A DNA stretch of 64,000 nt from Caldilineaceae bacterium (GTDB lineage Bacteria > Chloroflexota > Anaerolineae > Caldilineales > Caldilineaceae): NCBI GenBank assembly GCA_022824025.1, contig JAJEBF010000024.1, positions 1-64,000 on the forward strand. The letters are read 5' to 3'. A program made the position numbers and the translations under genes. The notes under the pieces are model-generated. The model saw nothing but the letters and a program-made list of their open reading frames with translations, was not told the DNA's origin and did not search any database. This document shows, in pieces, positions 44,035-51,762 of the stretch (positions are counted from its first letter, which is position 1; the number at the start of each line of letters is the position of its first letter).

Positions 44035-44541
44035 TTAGTCTGCCGCTCTGATATTGGCCAACGCTTCCCGCGCGACGCTCGCCCAGGATTCCGGCAGGTT
44101 CTCGCTCAGCCACTGGATTTTTTTCTCGGCTCTTGCTTCTTTGAACTCGCCGAGCTGCCGAATGACAACCTCGGCTAAGCCGGGCCGGGCAGGATAGCGG
44201 TCTGCAGCGATATGTGTAGGCAACCTGTGCAGTATGTCAAGCAGGTGCAGACGTATTTCCTCGGTATCGGGCGACGGTTTCCACGCTTCGCGAACATATC
44301 CCCTTGAGGCATACTCGCTACTATTGTTGCGCATTATCGGTCCGATCGGAATTGGATCGCGTTGGGGTCTGCGGTGGGGATGGTTGGCGCAGTAGGTCCA
44401 AAAGGGGTCCTTGATGGGGACGCGCCTGATCTCGCAGAAGGGTTCCAAGTCGTTGTTGGACGACTCGGGGTAGCCCTTTTCTCCACGGTTTTTGCGATTG
44501 AACCAGCAGGTCCCGCAGCAGTCGGAGCCTCCATTGGGCAT
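44035..44541 (-). CDS. Cys-rich N-terminal small conserved protein of unknown function
   Basis: The 168-residue product begins MPNGGSDCCGTCWFNRKN and continues with FCEIRRVPIKDPFWTYCANH. This gives a cluster C-C-x2-C and later single Cys plus C-x2-H, which looks like a metal site. I have seen similar N-termini in uncharacterised proteins of Chloroflexota and other phyla (recall, not a search). The C-terminal 90 residues are helical and contain EKKIQWLSENLPESWASVAR. GGAGGTAAGATAC before ATG 44541 decides the start over an upstream ATG at 44556. It stands alone just after a strong terminator. A zinc- or iron-binding role is inferred only from the Cys/His pattern. Confidence 0.75.
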   Translation of the reverse strand: MPNGGSDCCGTCWFNRKNRGEKGYPESSNNDLEPFCEIRRVPIKDPFWTYCANHPHRRPQRDPIPIGPIMRNNSSEYASRGYVREAWKPSPDTEEIRLHLLDILHRLPTHIAADRYPARPGLAEVVIRQLGEFKEARAEKKIQWLSENLPESWASVAREALANIRAAD

Positions 44542-44567
44542 GTATCTTACCTCCACATGTTGGGGTC

Positions 44568-44604
44568 AAAAAAAGGCGAAAGTGGTCAAGCCGCCACTTT
44601 CGCC
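44568..44604 (-). terminator. Rho-independent terminator of the repeat lipoprotein gene
   Basis: GGCGAAAGTGG and CCACTTTCGCC form a perfect 11-bp stem with an 8-base loop. On the minus strand it is followed by a run of seven T. It lies 36 bases after the stop of the gene at 44640. Confidence 0.88.
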
Positions 44605-44639
44605 CGTAAACTGTTTCAATTCGGTTGAGGCCCGGACAG

Positions 44640-47120
44640 TTACTCCTGATTCAGTTCGGCGGTTACGTCCAACTGGGCGCCGACGATCAGAGGCAGGAGT
44701 TCTTCGGCAAATAAGGCGGAGACAGTGGGATCTGCGAGTATGTTTGCCAAATCTCCGGGCAGGAATGGCGCGGCCAACTCCAGTGTACGGAGGATGGAAG
44801 GCGAGTCATAGTGAACTGTGAGGAGAACCACGTCGTCGGCGACGACGTTCAACTGATTGGCAGACGAGGTCAACTCCAATTCGGAGACTTGAAGACCGTC
44901 GTACAGGATGGAGGCAATGTTGGCGGGCAGGGCCGGCAGGTTGACTCCGTTCTCCTGCAACTGACTTGCGGGCACGCCGGCCACAGATTTGATTACCGAG
45001 CCTTCCAGCGTAAGCCCGAGCCCGAGAACGGGACGGTACCCTGCATCGATGTCAGGGGGTTCCATGCGGACCGCGGTTACGTCGAAAGCGGGCGCCATTT
45101 CTATACCTTCAGCGCCATCGGCCGTCGGTATGGAGAGGGCGACGCCGATATCGGTCTTTTGGAGGAATTCAAGGCCAACGCCGAGCATGCCAGGCGGGAT
45201 GGGCAGCAGTTCGGTGACGACGCGCTGGAGGGTATCCAGGGACTGGTCTGTCCAGGAGATGACGGGCAGATGGCCGCCGTTCGAGGCCAGATAAAGGCTG
45301 GCATCGATGATATTGAGATCGAGCCTCTGGATACCGAGGCTTTGCATATCGGTGATAAAGCGGGGTTGCAAGATGGACTGGCTGCCGAGGGGGATGCCCA
45401 TGACCGCGAGCGCGCCATCTGCTTTTACTTCAACTGGCAGCGAGGCCAGCCTGGTTTCGGGGGCTTCCTGTCCTGCCAGGGAGAGCTGTACATCAAGTCC
45501 GTTAGCGATTACGGGGGGCAGGTGGGGCAGATACTGGCTGACTGCGCCGATGGCGGCGACATTTTCCTCAAGGGAGGAGACGACGAGGAGGAGCCGGTTG
45601 AGCGCGGCTTCGTCGTACTGTATGGTGAGCAGGCTGCCAGAATCGACGACGAGATCGATGCCGCCGGCGGACGTGGTGAGTTGCAGCGTGTCCGAGCCGA
45701 CGCCGCCGACGATGTTCATTACGGTTGGGGGCAGGCTAACGGGCGGCAACAGGCCCATCAGGTCGGCGAGGGAGATGCCGAGGGCCGAGGTAACGTAGCC
45801 GTCGCTGTCGATGGCCGCGCCGATTTTCAGGGCTGGTTCTACGCCTTCGGGCGCGGCTGCGAAGTTGGGGGCGCCCACGTCGAATTCTTCGCTGAAGGTC
45901 ATCCCGTCCTGCGCGGGCAGGTCAAGGGAAAGGCCGATATTGGTATTGGCGAGGAGACCGCGCATAACGGTAAGGCCGACATCAACCATGCCTGGCGACA
46001 CGCCAAGGAGGTCAACGGCGACGTCACCGATGGTGTCGAGGGAGGCGTCGGTCCAGAGAATGGAGGGCAGGGATTCCTGGTTGAGCGCCAGGTAAAGGCC
46101 GCCGGACTGGATACTCAGGTCCAGCTTCTGTGCGTTGGTTGCGCTGAGGATGCCCAGGACGTCCGCGGGGACGACTGAACCAAGCCCCAGCGGGATGCCG
46201 AAGGCGCCCAACGATCCGTCTTCACCGATGCTGACCGGAATGGTTGGGAGCATTGTCTCGGCGGCCGGTTCGCCGGTAAAGGAGACGATGATATCAAGGT
46301 CTGCGCCCTGGAGTTTGGGCAGGACTTCACCGATCATGCCGCTCATAGAGGCGTCAACGAAGGCGCTGACGATGGGCATCAGATTATCGAGGCGTTCGGA
46401 ATCGTATGCGAGGCCCGGCAGATCTGTGTTATCGAGGGCGAGGTCGATGCCGTTGGGTTGGGTTGCGAGGGAGAATTGTTCAACGCCGACCGCGTTCAAG
46501 ATTTGGAGGGCCATCGGCGGGAGGGCCACACCAAGCGAGGCACCGAGGGACTGTTCGATTTCCGACAAGGGGATGCCTTCGAAGGAGGCCTGCCCTTCAG
46601 CGTCGAAGGCGAGGCTGGCAAACTGAAGGGGCCCGATGGTGGTTTCGGAGGCGCTCTCGGCAGAGACGAGTTCTTCGCCCTGCCAGTAGGGGATGTTCTG
46701 GCCGGCAGTGGGCAGAATGATGATTGCGCCGAGGCCGACTCTGCGCAGCCAGGGCAGCGCGGACGCTCCGACTTCGGCGCCGGCCACATTGGCGAGCACT
46801 TCGCCAACGAGTTCGGCTGATTCGTCACTCCATTTCAGATAGGGGAGAGGTTCTCCGTCGGCATGCAAGAAGATGCCGTGATAACCGATGCGCACCTCAA
46901 GGACGTCGACTCCGGCAACGGAGAACTGATCCAGCAAAGGTTGCTGCAGGATGGCTCCCATATTGAAGCCAAGCACGTTGCCGTTGCCGTTGGCATCAAC
47001 TCTGATTGGAACGGAAGGGAGGTTGAACCAAGTGGAGCCGCCTTCGCCGCCGCCATTACAGGCGCCCAGCACCAGGATGAAGGCCAGGATTACAATAAAT
47101 TTGCGGAGTAAGGCCGGCAC
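44640..47120 (-). CDS. 826-residue lipoprotein made of six alternating internal repeats
   Basis: The product has a signal peptide (LLRKFIVILAFILVLGAC) with the lipobox Cys at residue 21, so it is a membrane-anchored extracytoplasmic lipoprotein. After a Gly-rich linker, six repeats of about 110-130 residues follow at roughly 36-150, 165-290, 294-408, 430-555, 560-670 and 697-826. Odd repeats share VPI/IPV/LPV-x-V, GIPLG, a W-(S/T)-D-x-S strand and a final I-x-L-P-T/A segment. Even repeats share GI-x-L, LPP-x2-x2-I and a GIDL strand. The gene is thus (A-B)x3. GTG 47120 has AAGGAGG seven bases upstream. Promoter at 47211 and terminator at 44568 make it monocistronic. I do not recognise the family; lipid or hydrophobic-ligand binding is a guess. 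Confidence 0.85.
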   Translation of the reverse strand: MPALLRKFIVILAFILVLGACNGGGEGGSTWFNLPSVPIRVDANGNGNVLGFNMGAILQQPLLDQFSVAGVDVLEVRIGYHGIFLHADGEPLPYLKWSDESAELVGEVLANVAGAEVGASALPWLRRVGLGAIIILPTAGQNIPYWQGEELVSAESASETTIGPLQFASLAFDAEGQASFEGIPLSEIEQSLGASLGVALPPMALQILNAVGVEQFSLATQPNGIDLALDNTDLPGLAYDSERLDNLMPIVSAFVDASMSGMIGEVLPKLQGADLDIIVSFTGEPAAETMLPTIPVSIGEDGSLGAFGIPLGLGSVVPADVLGILSATNAQKLDLSIQSGGLYLALNQESLPSILWTDASLDTIGDVAVDLLGVSPGMVDVGLTVMRGLLANTNIGLSLDLPAQDGMTFSEEFDVGAPNFAAAPEGVEPALKIGAAIDSDGYVTSALGISLADLMGLLPPVSLPPTVMNIVGGVGSDTLQLTTSAGGIDLVVDSGSLLTIQYDEAALNRLLLVVSSLEENVAAIGAVSQYLPHLPPVIANGLDVQLSLAGQEAPETRLASLPVEVKADGALAVMGIPLGSQSILQPRFITDMQSLGIQRLDLNIIDASLYLASNGGHLPVISWTDQSLDTLQRVVTELLPIPPGMLGVGLEFLQKTDIGVALSIPTADGAEGIEMAPAFDVTAVRMEPPDIDAGYRPVLGLGLTLEGSVIKSVAGVPASQLQENGVNLPALPANIASILYDGLQVSELELTSSANQLNVVADDVVLLTVHYDSPSILRTLELAAPFLPGDLANILADPTVSALFAEELLPLIVGAQLDVTAELNQE

Positions 47121-47169
47121 AAGCCGCCTCCTTATGGGTGCGTAACAAAGATAAGCAGATAAGAACCAG

Positions 47170-47210: not shown

Positions 47211-47239
47211 GTTATATCACGATTGATTTGGAAAGACAA
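47211..47239 (-). promoter_or_regulatory. Promoter of the repeat lipoprotein gene
   Basis: On the minus strand, TTGTCT (47234-47239) and TATAAC (47211-47216) are exactly 17 bases apart, and the -10 is extended by TGA (TGATATAAC). The start would be near 47204, about 85 bases before GTG 47120. Confidence 0.65.
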
Positions 47240-47429
47240 TGCCGAAAGTTTCGCCTTGGTCGATTTGATGTTTCGACCTTATGAATACAGTGCGCATTGG
47301 TTCGCGACGGCCCGGTTTCGGATTCATCTTAATCAGAAGAGCCGCCGAATCTTGTGGGCACTTTCCAAGGTTACCACACATCTTACAATAGGTCATATTG
47401 AGATACAAAACCGGCATTTGGGACGGGGA

Positions 47430-47770
47430 ACGGCAACAGCTTTCTGATCCACGGAGGGACACGGATTTTGTCTGAACGGGGATTTGGGGGGGATTAGAGG
47501 GATTAGGGGATAGGGCGAACGGCAACGGCGAACGGCAACATCTTTTTGATTCACGGAGGGGCACGGATTTTGTCTGAACGGGGATTTGGGGGGATTTTTG
47601 GGATTAGGGGGATGGGGCGAACGGCAGCGGCGAACGGCAAGATCATTCTGGTCCACGGAGGGGTACAGATTTTGTCTGAACGGGGATTTGGGGGGATTAA
47701 AGGGATTAGGGGGATGGGGCGAACGGCAACATCTTTCTGATCCGCGGAGGGACACGGAAAAGGGCATGGT
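47430..47770. repeat. G-rich dispersed repeat, three tandem copies
   Basis: The marker TCTGAACGGGGATTTGGGGG occurs starting at 47471, 47573 and 47675, giving two exact 102-base intervals. Each unit has G tracts with ATT-type linkers, then GGGGCGAACGGCA and a CCACGGAGGG block. Units differ by small changes, as in decayed tandem duplication. Single copies are at 651 and 51810. Confidence 0.9.
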
Positions 47771-48072: not shown

Positions 48073-49818
48073 TCATTTTTCGTGCGGCTCTTGGGCGCGG
48101 GCGCGCAGCGCGGACAGCATGGCCTCCTGTTCGTTCCAGGGGTACTCGGTCTCTCCGTAGCACATGCTGCGTTCGTGTCCCTTGCCAAAGGAGGCCACGA
48201 CATCGCCGGCGCGGGCCATTGCCACGCCAAAGCGAATTGCCTCGGCGCGGTCGGGCACGACGGCAAACCGGGACGAAGGGGACGGAGACGTTGTATGCGA
48301 TAGTTCGGGAGGGTCGCACACCAGGCTGTGCTGGCCGCGGGCGCTTTCGGTCGGGTTCCGAATTACGTCCTGAATGCCGGCCGCGATTTCGCGGTTGATT
48401 TCCGCCAGGTCTTCGGTACGGGGGTCTTCGGCGGTGATGACGGTGAAATCGGCCAGGCGGCCGCTGACCTGCCCCATCAGCCGCCGTTTGCCGCGGTCTC
48501 GAAGGCCGGCGCAGCCAAAGATCGCAATCAGGCGTCCGGACCCACTGCCGGCATCTTTGGCGACAAGCGGTCGCAGCGTTTCCAACGCCCGTTCGAGGCT
48601 GGCAGGGGAATGGGCGAAGTCTACGACGGCCAGAAATTCCTGGCCGCAGTCCATACGCTGCATTCGGCCGAGGACAGAGGTGAGAGAGGCGACGCCCAGC
48701 CGGATCCGCTCCGGGGGGATTCCCAGGCCGAGAGCGACTGCCGATGCGCAGAGAATGTTTGACACATTGAACTCGCCGATCAGGCGGGTCTCCATGGGGA
48801 TGGCTCCGCCCCACCAGACAAGCTCGAAGCGGGTGGCATCGGGCAGATACTGGATCTTGCGGGCGTAAACGTCAGCAGTTGGGTTGGCGGCGCTGTAGGT
48901 GTAGGAGGAGACGGCGGGGGAGTTGGAGCGGGCGCGCTCTTGGGCCAGCGCGTCTTGCAGGTGCGGGCAGCTGCTGTCGTCGAGGTTGAAGACGGCGATA
49001 CGGGGAACGCCAGGTTTCGGCGGGGACCGAAACAGGCTACGGAAAAGCAGAAACTTTGCCTCCCGATAGGCCTCAAATGAGCCGTGAATGTCAAGGTGTT
49101 CGTGGGTGATATTGGTGAGCGCGGCCGCATCATACTCGACTGCCGCGACGCGCTTCTGATCGAGCCCGAAGCTGGTGCTTTCGATAACGGCGAAACGGCA
49201 CCCCGCTGAACGCATTTGCGCGAGGAATTTCTGCACTGCCGGCGCGTCGGGCGTTGTCACGTGAAGACCGGTTTCCTGCTCGACGGCAGCGATGCGCGCG
49301 CCGACGGTTGTAACGACTCCCACGCTTGCAGAGCGGCATAGGATCGCTTCCAGCAGGGAGCAGGTTGTTGTTTTGCCATCGGTGCCGGTCACGCCGATTA
49401 CGGTCTGGGCGCGGCTGGGGAAATCGTAAAAGGCTGCGCTGAGCCAAGCCAACGCCTCCCGGCTGTCGTTCACCTGGATATAGGGCGTCTCTGTTTGCTG
49501 CGGCCACCAGCCGCGTTCTTCAAGCCGGGCAAGGTGGTGGCTGCCCACGACGGCGGCGGCGCCGGAGGCAACGGCTTGAGGAATGAAGCGATGGCCGTCG
49601 GTCTGCAGGCCCGCGACGGCGACAAACAGCGAGTTTTGGCGGACTTCCCGGCTGTCATCGGTGACTTGACTTACTGCAAGGGGGGGCGCTTCCGGGTCTC
49701 CGGCAACGCGCAGCGCGTCCGGAAGCCGGGCCAGCAGGGCGGTCAGAGTTTTCTCCTGGCCGGTCACTTGCGCGGGGCGCCTGGAGGCGGCGGCCGGTTT
49801 GGAAGCGTTCGCCGTCAT
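48073..49818 (-). CDS. murE: UDP-MurNAc-tripeptide synthetase (MurE-type Mur ligase)
   Basis: The 581-residue product is a Mur ligase with all three domains. The N-terminal domain shows DDSREVRQNSLFVAVAGLQT, the central domain the P-loop IGVTGTDGKTTTCSLLEAIL and LTNITHEHLDIHGSFEAYRE, and the C-terminal domain VVDFAHSPASLERALETLRP. MurE adds the third amino acid of the peptidoglycan stem. The specificity motif, D-N-P-R in meso-diaminopimelate enzymes, reads E-D-P-R here (ITAEDPRTEDL), so another diamino acid such as ornithine or lysine is possible (inference). About 80 extra residues occur near the C-terminus. ATG 49818 overlaps the stop of the propeller gene upstream (ATGA), showing translational coupling. 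No other mur genes are near. Confidence 0.9.
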   Translation of the reverse strand: MTANASKPAAASRRPAQVTGQEKTLTALLARLPDALRVAGDPEAPPLAVSQVTDDSREVRQNSLFVAVAGLQTDGHRFIPQAVASGAAAVVGSHHLARLEERGWWPQQTETPYIQVNDSREALAWLSAAFYDFPSRAQTVIGVTGTDGKTTTCSLLEAILCRSASVGVVTTVGARIAAVEQETGLHVTTPDAPAVQKFLAQMRSAGCRFAVIESTSFGLDQKRVAAVEYDAAALTNITHEHLDIHGSFEAYREAKFLLFRSLFRSPPKPGVPRIAVFNLDDSSCPHLQDALAQERARSNSPAVSSYTYSAANPTADVYARKIQYLPDATRFELVWWGGAIPMETRLIGEFNVSNILCASAVALGLGIPPERIRLGVASLTSVLGRMQRMDCGQEFLAVVDFAHSPASLERALETLRPLVAKDAGSGSGRLIAIFGCAGLRDRGKRRLMGQVSGRLADFTVITAEDPRTEDLAEINREIAAGIQDVIRNPTESARGQHSLVCDPPELSHTTSPSPSSRFAVVPDRAEAIRFGVAMARAGDVVASFGKGHERSMCYGETEYPWNEQEAMLSALRARAQEPHEK

Positions 49819-51722
49819 AGCTCGTCGGTTCCGGAACCTCCGTCGCGGGCGAACGATATTCCGGCGACCAGCATCAGCAGGAAAAAGACTGCGGCGCCGC
49901 CAACCCAGATCGGCGGGATCCGGGTGAGATTCCGGTTGAGATTGCCTGGACTCAAAGCAGTGGATGTCGCGGTTGGCGCTGGCTCCGGACCGGCCGCTGA
50001 AGTGGTCGGCGCGCTGGTCGGCGTACTGTCAGTCGAAGGCGGCGGCAGTGGCGCCTGGGTCTGGATTGGGGCAGCCGCGGGGGCGTTGGGATCGGGCGTT
50101 GGGGTTGGCGTACTGGCGATCTCAGGGGTGGCTGCCGGCCCTTGTGAACTTCGCTGCGGCGAAGGCGTACAGGTCGGCACGGGCGTAATTGCAGGGGCAT
50201 TGGGGTCTGGCGTCGCGGTCGAGGTAATTGTCGGGGTGGGCGTATCGGCCGGAGCATTGGGGTCCGGTGTCGCGGTCGAGGTGCCGGTCGCTGTCGGCGT
50301 ATCGGCAGGGGCATTGGGATCTGGTGTCGCGGTCGGTGTACTGGTAGACGCGGGCGGTCCTGTTTGGGAGTCGGGGTCGACGGTTTCGGTCAGCAGACAG
50401 GGGGATGTCGCGTCTTCGGGCGGCCCGTCGGGGTCGCGGGTGACGGTGGCAGTTGGTGTGGCCGTGGGCGCGTTGGGATCGGGGGTGGCGGTGCTGGTCG
50501 GCGTTTCTGAGGGCAAGGCGGGAATTGGGGTCGGAGTAGGGGTAGGGGTCTCGGTTGCCAGGGGCGCGACCGTAGACGTTGGCGAGAGTGACGGGGTCGG
50601 GGCAGGCACTCTGGGCAATTGGGCCGGATCCAATGGCGTTATCTGGGCCGAAGACAGGAAGGATGCGCTGCTGTCGAGAGTACGGAGGACGCCATCCTGT
50701 TCAGTGCCGGCGTAGGTGACGCCCACGAAGGTTGAGGAGGAGGCCAGACGGAAGACCGGATTGGTATAGGCGGCGCCGTTAACGGGCACGCGAGTCCAGT
50801 CCGGAACACCTTGTGTCCAAAGCCCGACATTGGTGCCAACAACGACGCCTTGGCCGCTGACGGCCAGATCGTAGATGACGACACCGGCGGGGAAGGCGGG
50901 GTCCTGCAGCCAGTTTTCGCCATCGTCGCTCAGGTACAGTCCGGAGGCGAAGGTGCCGACATAGATACGGTCATCCAGTTTCGTCATGCCGCGTGCGATG
51001 ATGCCCGCCGGCAGGTTGACCCGTTCCCAGTTTTGGGCTCCTGAAGCGAGGCGCCAGACGCCATCGTGGGTACCGGCAAAGAGGTCGCCTTGCCTGTCTG
51101 CAAAGGCGCGCACGCGCAGTGCGCTGCCGGACAGGCCCTCGCTGTACCATTCCCAGCTTTGGCCGCGGTCCAGGCTGCGCACAATGCCGTCATGGCGGGT
51201 TCCGGCGTAGAAGACGGTTTGGCCGTTTTCGATGCGGGTATAGAGGCGGCCGATGCCGCTGTTCGGGGAGAGGACCTGTTGGATTGAGGGCTCTTGCCGC
51301 CAGGACAGGCCGCCGTCTTCGCTGATGAAGAGATTGCCGACACCGCCGTCGGCGGCGAGGACGAAGTTTCCGTCCTGCGGATCGAAACGGATCGAGGCGA
51401 CCGAGGTATCGGGAGGGAGTTCGGCGTTGGCGCGGCTCCAGGTGTGGCCGCCGTCGGCGCTGCGGTAGATTCCAGCGGGCACGGGGACGTTTAATGTGCC
51501 GGCGACGACGATGCTGGGATTGTCGGGCGAGATGTCCAGGCCAATGATGCTGTTCGAGAAGGGCACGAAGCCTGATTGGGCGAAGATGCGGCTGCCGGAA
51601 AGGGCGAGCAGCGCCGTCAGAAGCAGGAGGATCGGCCACAGTCGCCGATGGACGGATGAAGTATTGGATGCCGATTCAGGGCGGTATGGACCGCGCGATA
51701 TTTGCTGGTGACCAGCCTGCAT
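49815..51722 (-). CDS. Cell-surface beta-propeller on a Thr/Pro-rich stalk with C-terminal membrane anchor
   Basis: The 635-residue product has a signal-like segment (RRLWPILLLLTALLALSGSR) near the start, then about 320 residues of propeller with Asp boxes (SADGGHTW, SEDGGLSW, SLDRGQSW) typical of BNR/VPS10-type folds. A low-complexity stalk of about 210 residues follows, with TPDPNAP repeated five times. It ends with one transmembrane helix (IWVGGAAVFFLLMLVAGISF) and a short tail. GGGAGGGTCT before ATG 51722 sets the start. The stop overlaps the murE start. The stalk would hold the propeller away from the membrane, within or beyond the cell wall. Its ligand is unknown; coupling to murE suggests a link to wall synthesis or surface display. 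Confidence 0.85.
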   Translation of the reverse strand: MQAGHQQISRGPYRPESASNTSSVHRRLWPILLLLTALLALSGSRIFAQSGFVPFSNSIIGLDISPDNPSIVVAGTLNVPVPAGIYRSADGGHTWSRANAELPPDTSVASIRFDPQDGNFVLAADGGVGNLFISEDGGLSWRQEPSIQQVLSPNSGIGRLYTRIENGQTVFYAGTRHDGIVRSLDRGQSWEWYSEGLSGSALRVRAFADRQGDLFAGTHDGVWRLASGAQNWERVNLPAGIIARGMTKLDDRIYVGTFASGLYLSDDGENWLQDPAFPAGVVIYDLAVSGQGVVVGTNVGLWTQGVPDWTRVPVNGAAYTNPVFRLASSSTFVGVTYAGTEQDGVLRTLDSSASFLSSAQITPLDPAQLPRVPAPTPSLSPTSTVAPLATETPTPTPTPIPALPSETPTSTATPDPNAPTATPTATVTRDPDGPPEDATSPCLLTETVDPDSQTGPPASTSTPTATPDPNAPADTPTATGTSTATPDPNAPADTPTPTITSTATPDPNAPAITPVPTCTPSPQRSSQGPAATPEIASTPTPTPDPNAPAAAPIQTQAPLPPPSTDSTPTSAPTTSAAGPEPAPTATSTALSPGNLNRNLTRIPPIWVGGAAVFFLLMLVAGISFARDGGSGTDEL

Positions 51723-51762
51723 AGACCCTCCCAAAAAGGGGCGCCGGAGAGGTAGGGTTAAA

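Follow-up and report, generated by a model that had tools for sequence, protein, structure and literature searches.

A predicted lipoprotein of Caldilineaceae with alternating A-B repeats and its relatives in the Anaerolineae

Closest described families

Three extracytoplasmic families thought closest in behaviour to the lipoprotein described here, YbbR, LmeA and LppX, were selected for comparison. YbbR-domain proteins (PF07949) are membrane-anchored and extracytoplasmic, LppX/LprAFG and LolA-like lipoproteins (PF07161) are exported, lipid-anchored and similar in module size to the A-B repeat family, and LmeA/DUF2993 proteins of TULIP type (PF11209) are extracytoplasmic with a hydrophobic composition. 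YbbR-domain proteins likewise consist of tandem repeats, of ~80 aa, and occur in 40 of the 41 class genomes sampled, but Pfam gave no match to this family and hhalign a probability of at most 0.4% against A, B or A-B. Export and a lipid anchor are shared with the LppX/LprAFG and LolA-like lipoproteins, and hydrophobic composition with LmeA/DUF2993; profile similarity is nevertheless absent in both comparisons (no Pfam match; hhalign probability ≤0.2% for each).

Searches with the 826-aa lipoprotein itself, at a cut-off as loose as E 10, returned no match in Pfam, NCBIfam or PDB, and scans of members across the family against Pfam, NCBIfam and PHROGs, and of profiles against PDB, returned no credible match. 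The statement in the first-pass annotation that the protein could not be matched to a known family therefore stands, as no strong profile match to a characterised family appeared. Several of the weak NCBIfam matches of family members are to lipoprotein leader models alone, which accords with export. The weak PDB matches, one to Internalin-J (E 0.027 over 42 residues) and the other to an S-layer protein (E 0.49), are short and lack credibility. A literature search found no paper on the A-B repeat lipoprotein family. Given this lack of credible matches, and of profile similarity to YbbR, LmeA and LppX, the family is previously unnamed in the libraries scanned (Pfam, NCBIfam, PHROGs, PDB).

The lipoprotein, its repeats and its family

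The window analysed is a 64,000-nucleotide stretch of a Caldilineaceae contig, in which the lipoprotein gene occupies 44640..47120 on the minus strand, where the other genes and signals of the window given below also lie. It opens with a GTG start preceded by a strong ribosome-binding site, AAGGAGG (47127..47133), which belongs to a block that hardly varies among orthologs. The translation bears out the earlier description of a lipoprotein of 826 residues, with a predicted signal peptide (residues 1-20) and a lipobox, LGA-C21 (47058..47120), whose cysteine is the sole one in the mature protein. In its mature form the protein has an acidic pI of 4.05, few Lys and Arg and a hydrophobic composition (GRAVY +0.42). 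Comparison of the whole protein with six orthologs gave a dN/dS of ~0.1 (range 0.07–0.15), and purifying selection is strong across all repeats.

The gene had also been credited with its own promoter, leader hairpin and terminator, two of which hold. A putative sigma-70-type promoter, TTGTCT-17 nt-TATAAC (47211..47239), lies within a block that is kept in 15 orthologs, the most distant of them at 65% protein identity, and went unflagged in a generic promoter scan of the region, while an intrinsic terminator with a 12-bp stem followed by a T run is found at 44566..44605 (fold z −3.3). The leader hairpin is no better than shuffles (z −0.8) and is missing in ortholog L030, and is thus unsupported as a functional element.

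Six repeats of ~130 aa in the order A-B-A-B-A-B make up the body of the protein. A single-repeat HMM placed A1 at 46710..47012 (residues 37-137), B1 at 46278..46613 (170-281), A2 at 45915..46241 (294-402), B2 at 45477..45815 (436-548), A3 at 45126..45440 (561-665) and B3 at 44652..44990 (711-823). Self-alignment, a check suggested in the first-pass annotation, recovered the repeats, with the best ungapped diagonals at offsets of 267, 263 and 259 aa. Relative to 200 shuffles, similarity was strongest between repeats of the same type (A-A pairs z 15–35, B-B pairs z 9–18) and weaker for A1-B1, B1-A2 and B1-A3 (z 7–10); A1-B3, A2-B3 and A3-B3 showed none in the self-alignment and are connected through the family profile alone. 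Self-alignment, single-repeat HMM and family profiles agree on six repeats alternating between two related types, as originally proposed, and we regard the (A-B)x3 architecture as very nearly certain. The motifs first put forward for the two types hold in part: W-S/T-D-x-S is present in A1, A2 and A3, and LPP and GIDL in B1 and B2, with the exceptions that B3 has LPAN and QLNV at these places, that A1 has GFNMG in place of GIPLG, and that GIPL is also present in B1.

A profile seeded from only these six repeats and then iterated, with a sequence sample of 80 further stretches and 40 wider neighbourhoods from other genomes, found 402 repeats in 143 non-redundant related proteins, a wider family of two-, four- and six-repeat members with conserved gene neighbours that the earlier single-sequence view had missed. 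Two repeats are present in 109 of these proteins, four in 10 and six in 24, with an odd number in 0/143. Because every protein carries exactly 2, 4 or 6 repeats, the A-B pair is the indivisible module. The nearest neighbour is of the same type (odd-odd, even-even), as alternating A-B order requires, for 393 of the 402 repeats, and linkers are nearly constant, with a median of 35 residues from A to B (5–95%: 31–45) and of 12 from B to the next A (5–95%: 12–14). When aligned independently from two-repeat proteins, the A and B profiles match each other over 125 columns (profile-profile probability 100%, E 6.5e-40). A and B are homologous yet ancient, distinct types: they thus go back to a common ancestor that preceded the diversification of the class, and gains and losses since then have involved whole pairs alone. 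The four-repeat form is equivalent to A1-B1-A2-B3, to which the six-repeat form adds an inner pair.

Nearly all genomes of the same genus have six-repeat orthologs (65–96% identity), and other Caldilineaceae genera have six- or four-repeat versions. At least one family member is encoded in all 37 Caldilineaceae genomes searched, usually with one or two two-repeat paralogs. Two-repeat members extend to several other Anaerolineae families (a profile search detected the family in 102 of 396 class genomes), and one family of another class also has members, with 12 of 301 genomes in the phylum sample in all. No relatives were found on plasmids or viral contigs, the viral part of this search being weak as it used one peptide pattern.

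An export signal or membrane anchor precedes the first repeat across the family, in the form of a lipobox in 127 of the 143 members and of plain signal peptides or transmembrane anchors in the remainder. In two Caldilineaceae members (L082 and L095) the lipobox Cys is lost, with VGWG or VGRG instead, so that anchoring is apparently by an uncleaved signal helix. Conservation is highest at Gly, Pro, Asn, Leu and Trp/Tyr residues, in the pattern G-(L/I)-x-L-x-x-N-G-x-x-L-P-x-(L/I)-x-W-D, and no catalytic-looking residue set was found among the conserved repeat positions.

Possible roles in the cell envelope

We tentatively favour, at somewhat less than even odds, a scaffold or binding protein of the envelope, non-enzymatic and tethered to the membrane, whose valency or reach would depend on the number of pairs. 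The protein would be exported and then, judging from the lipobox, lipid-anchored at Cys21, its body consisting of three modules in a row, in each of which A and B form an obligate pair. The nearly constant linkers (~35 residues within a pair, 12 between pairs) suggest that the modules form a stiff chain and are not strung loosely like beads. As no catalytic-looking set is conserved, binding of a partner (a protein, wall polymer or glycan) appears most likely from the sequences, and one, two or three pairs would translate into different reach or valency. Arguing for a scaffold are the even repeat counts, clean types, A-B homology, near-constant linkers, export signals, purifying selection, presence in all 37 Caldilineaceae genomes, and the murE and EENTR neighbours described below.

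Against it stand the structural results, the failure to find an EENTR partner gene in the genus, a murE linkage that may be without function, and a composition that would equally suit a lipid carrier. AF2 predictions were too poor to assign a fold, with a mean pLDDT of 46.7 for the A1-B1 unit (36 rows) and of 33.9 for the full protein (12 orthologs), although a secondary-structure pattern of roughly b-b-a-b-b-b-a-a-b recurs in each repeat of these poor models. Their quality was likewise too low to judge a TULIP fold; Foldseek against PDB gave a best E of 0.07 (TM 0.14) and no meaningful match, those to sliding clamps (TM ~0.1) being by chance. Coevolution across the 402 repeats, by mean-field and pseudolikelihood methods, gave a best strand ladder of 4.0, under the permutation 95% level of 4.7, and placed the expected b3-b4 hairpin among the top signals without reaching significance. 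The first-pass suggestion of a structured surface or periplasmic assembly agrees with the export signals, obligate pairs and near-constant linkers and is thus plausible; the low-confidence models do not show it.

An unlikely alternative is that the protein carries lipids or other hydrophobic ligands, with a hydrophobic groove or pocket in each A-B pair and a longer bridge outwards from the membrane where pairs stand in tandem, by analogy with LolA/LppX or TULIP-type lipid carriers. The lipoprotein location, the hydrophobic strands plus helices, and the acidic, hydrophobic composition would suit such a carrier, as would the finding that LppX-type proteins were not detected in the 7 class members of a 61-genome sample. 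Set against this are the negligible hhalign probabilities for LppX and LmeA, and models too poor to show a cavity.

A bolder version of the envelope scaffold is more doubtful than the carrier. It takes the A-B pair for a new fold and has the long forms serve as structural tethers in the multilayered Caldilineaceae envelope, joining the cytoplasmic membrane to peptidoglycan or the inner layer, with pair number matching the gap. The favoured scaffold reading, too, looks to Litorilinea aerophila, which we take to be a member of the Caldilineaceae. Its envelope is multilayered and comprises a membrane, peptidoglycan and inner, outer and proteinaceous layers (PMC13319060). Tethers of this kind would thus have work to do, and nothing links the 826-aa lipoprotein to any one of these layers. 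A conserved, unnamed family with an unusually strict whole-pair rule offers a handle on the poorly known cell envelope of the Chloroflexota; how its length evolved by duplication of whole modules at a single conserved locus can be tested directly, and one 260-residue module suffices for structure determination.

Gene neighbourhood

The conserved upstream neighbour is murE (48073..49818; TIGR01085 439 bits, cut-off 257; synteny), the sole MurE of the genome above the family cut-off, located on contig C35 apart from the cluster of three other Mur ligases on contig C42. Of 17 divergent loci, 14 have the long lipoprotein gene downstream of murE on the same strand, as do 9 of 9 close orthologs open to testing; this gene order thus holds in 23 of the 26 loci with a testable flank. 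Considering the lipoprotein gene's own promoter and the 0.95-kb gap to murE, this linkage may carry no function.

In other families, a gene for a small membrane protein with an EENTR motif lies directly downstream on the same strand (gap <200 bp) at 24 of the 37 two-repeat loci. This raises the possibility that the ancestral two-repeat lipoprotein served with the EENTR protein as an accessory or regulatory subunit of a membrane complex, from which the Caldilineaceae long forms would be derived and partner-free. The EENTR profile was seeded from 6 of these 24 loci, and leaving them out gives 18 of 31. The protein was not found in the genus of the 826-aa lipoprotein. In other Caldilineaceae genera its gene is present but unlinked, and it is also encoded in genomes where no repeat-family member was detected; it thus cannot be an obligate partner, and we consider the complex subunit about as improbable as the lipid carrier. 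A xanthine-dehydrogenase-type large-subunit gene (Pfam MoCoBD) upstream on the same strand at 11 of the 37 two-repeat loci would fit lipoproteins that are sensors or delivery factors for molybdenum hydroxylases or other neighbours, with neighbourhood mirroring function. This reading is very improbable: the gene is limited to a few families, none was seen near the Caldilineaceae members, and molybdenum hydroxylases are normally cytoplasmic enzymes.

The EENTR family is widespread in the class, and its genes (L105:6889-7215, L106:7069-7476, L110:5229-5651 and others) adjoin the two-repeat lipoprotein in most families. EENTR proteins share with DUF4282 (PF14110) the character of small membrane proteins, but the match is weak (E 0.0016–0.0045), under the curated cut-off and confined to single members, the others having none. 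Loci L100, L101, L213 and L215 of family f107 carry tandem arrays of two or three such lipoprotein genes between the molybdenum-hydroxylase gene and the EENTR gene, a plausible intermediate toward the longer forms.

Other features flank the lipoprotein gene in the window. Downstream, a gene at 44035-44556, present at this place in most genus members, encodes a protein of 173 aa that has a Cys cluster (CCGTCWF...) near its N-terminus and no Pfam or NCBIfam match. In the interval that separates murE from the lipoprotein gene, a 102-nt unit is repeated in tandem three to four times (47423-47758); a 33-nt core of this unit recurs at nine genomic places on five contigs, against 0 for the reversed control pattern. 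Adjoining murE at 49815-51734, and kept in the genus, is a gene for a 639-aa protein that has a signal/TM segment, an N-terminal part resembling BNR/YCF48, a long repetitive stretch rich in Thr and Pro (TPTxTPDPNAP) and a hydrophobic segment at the C-terminus.
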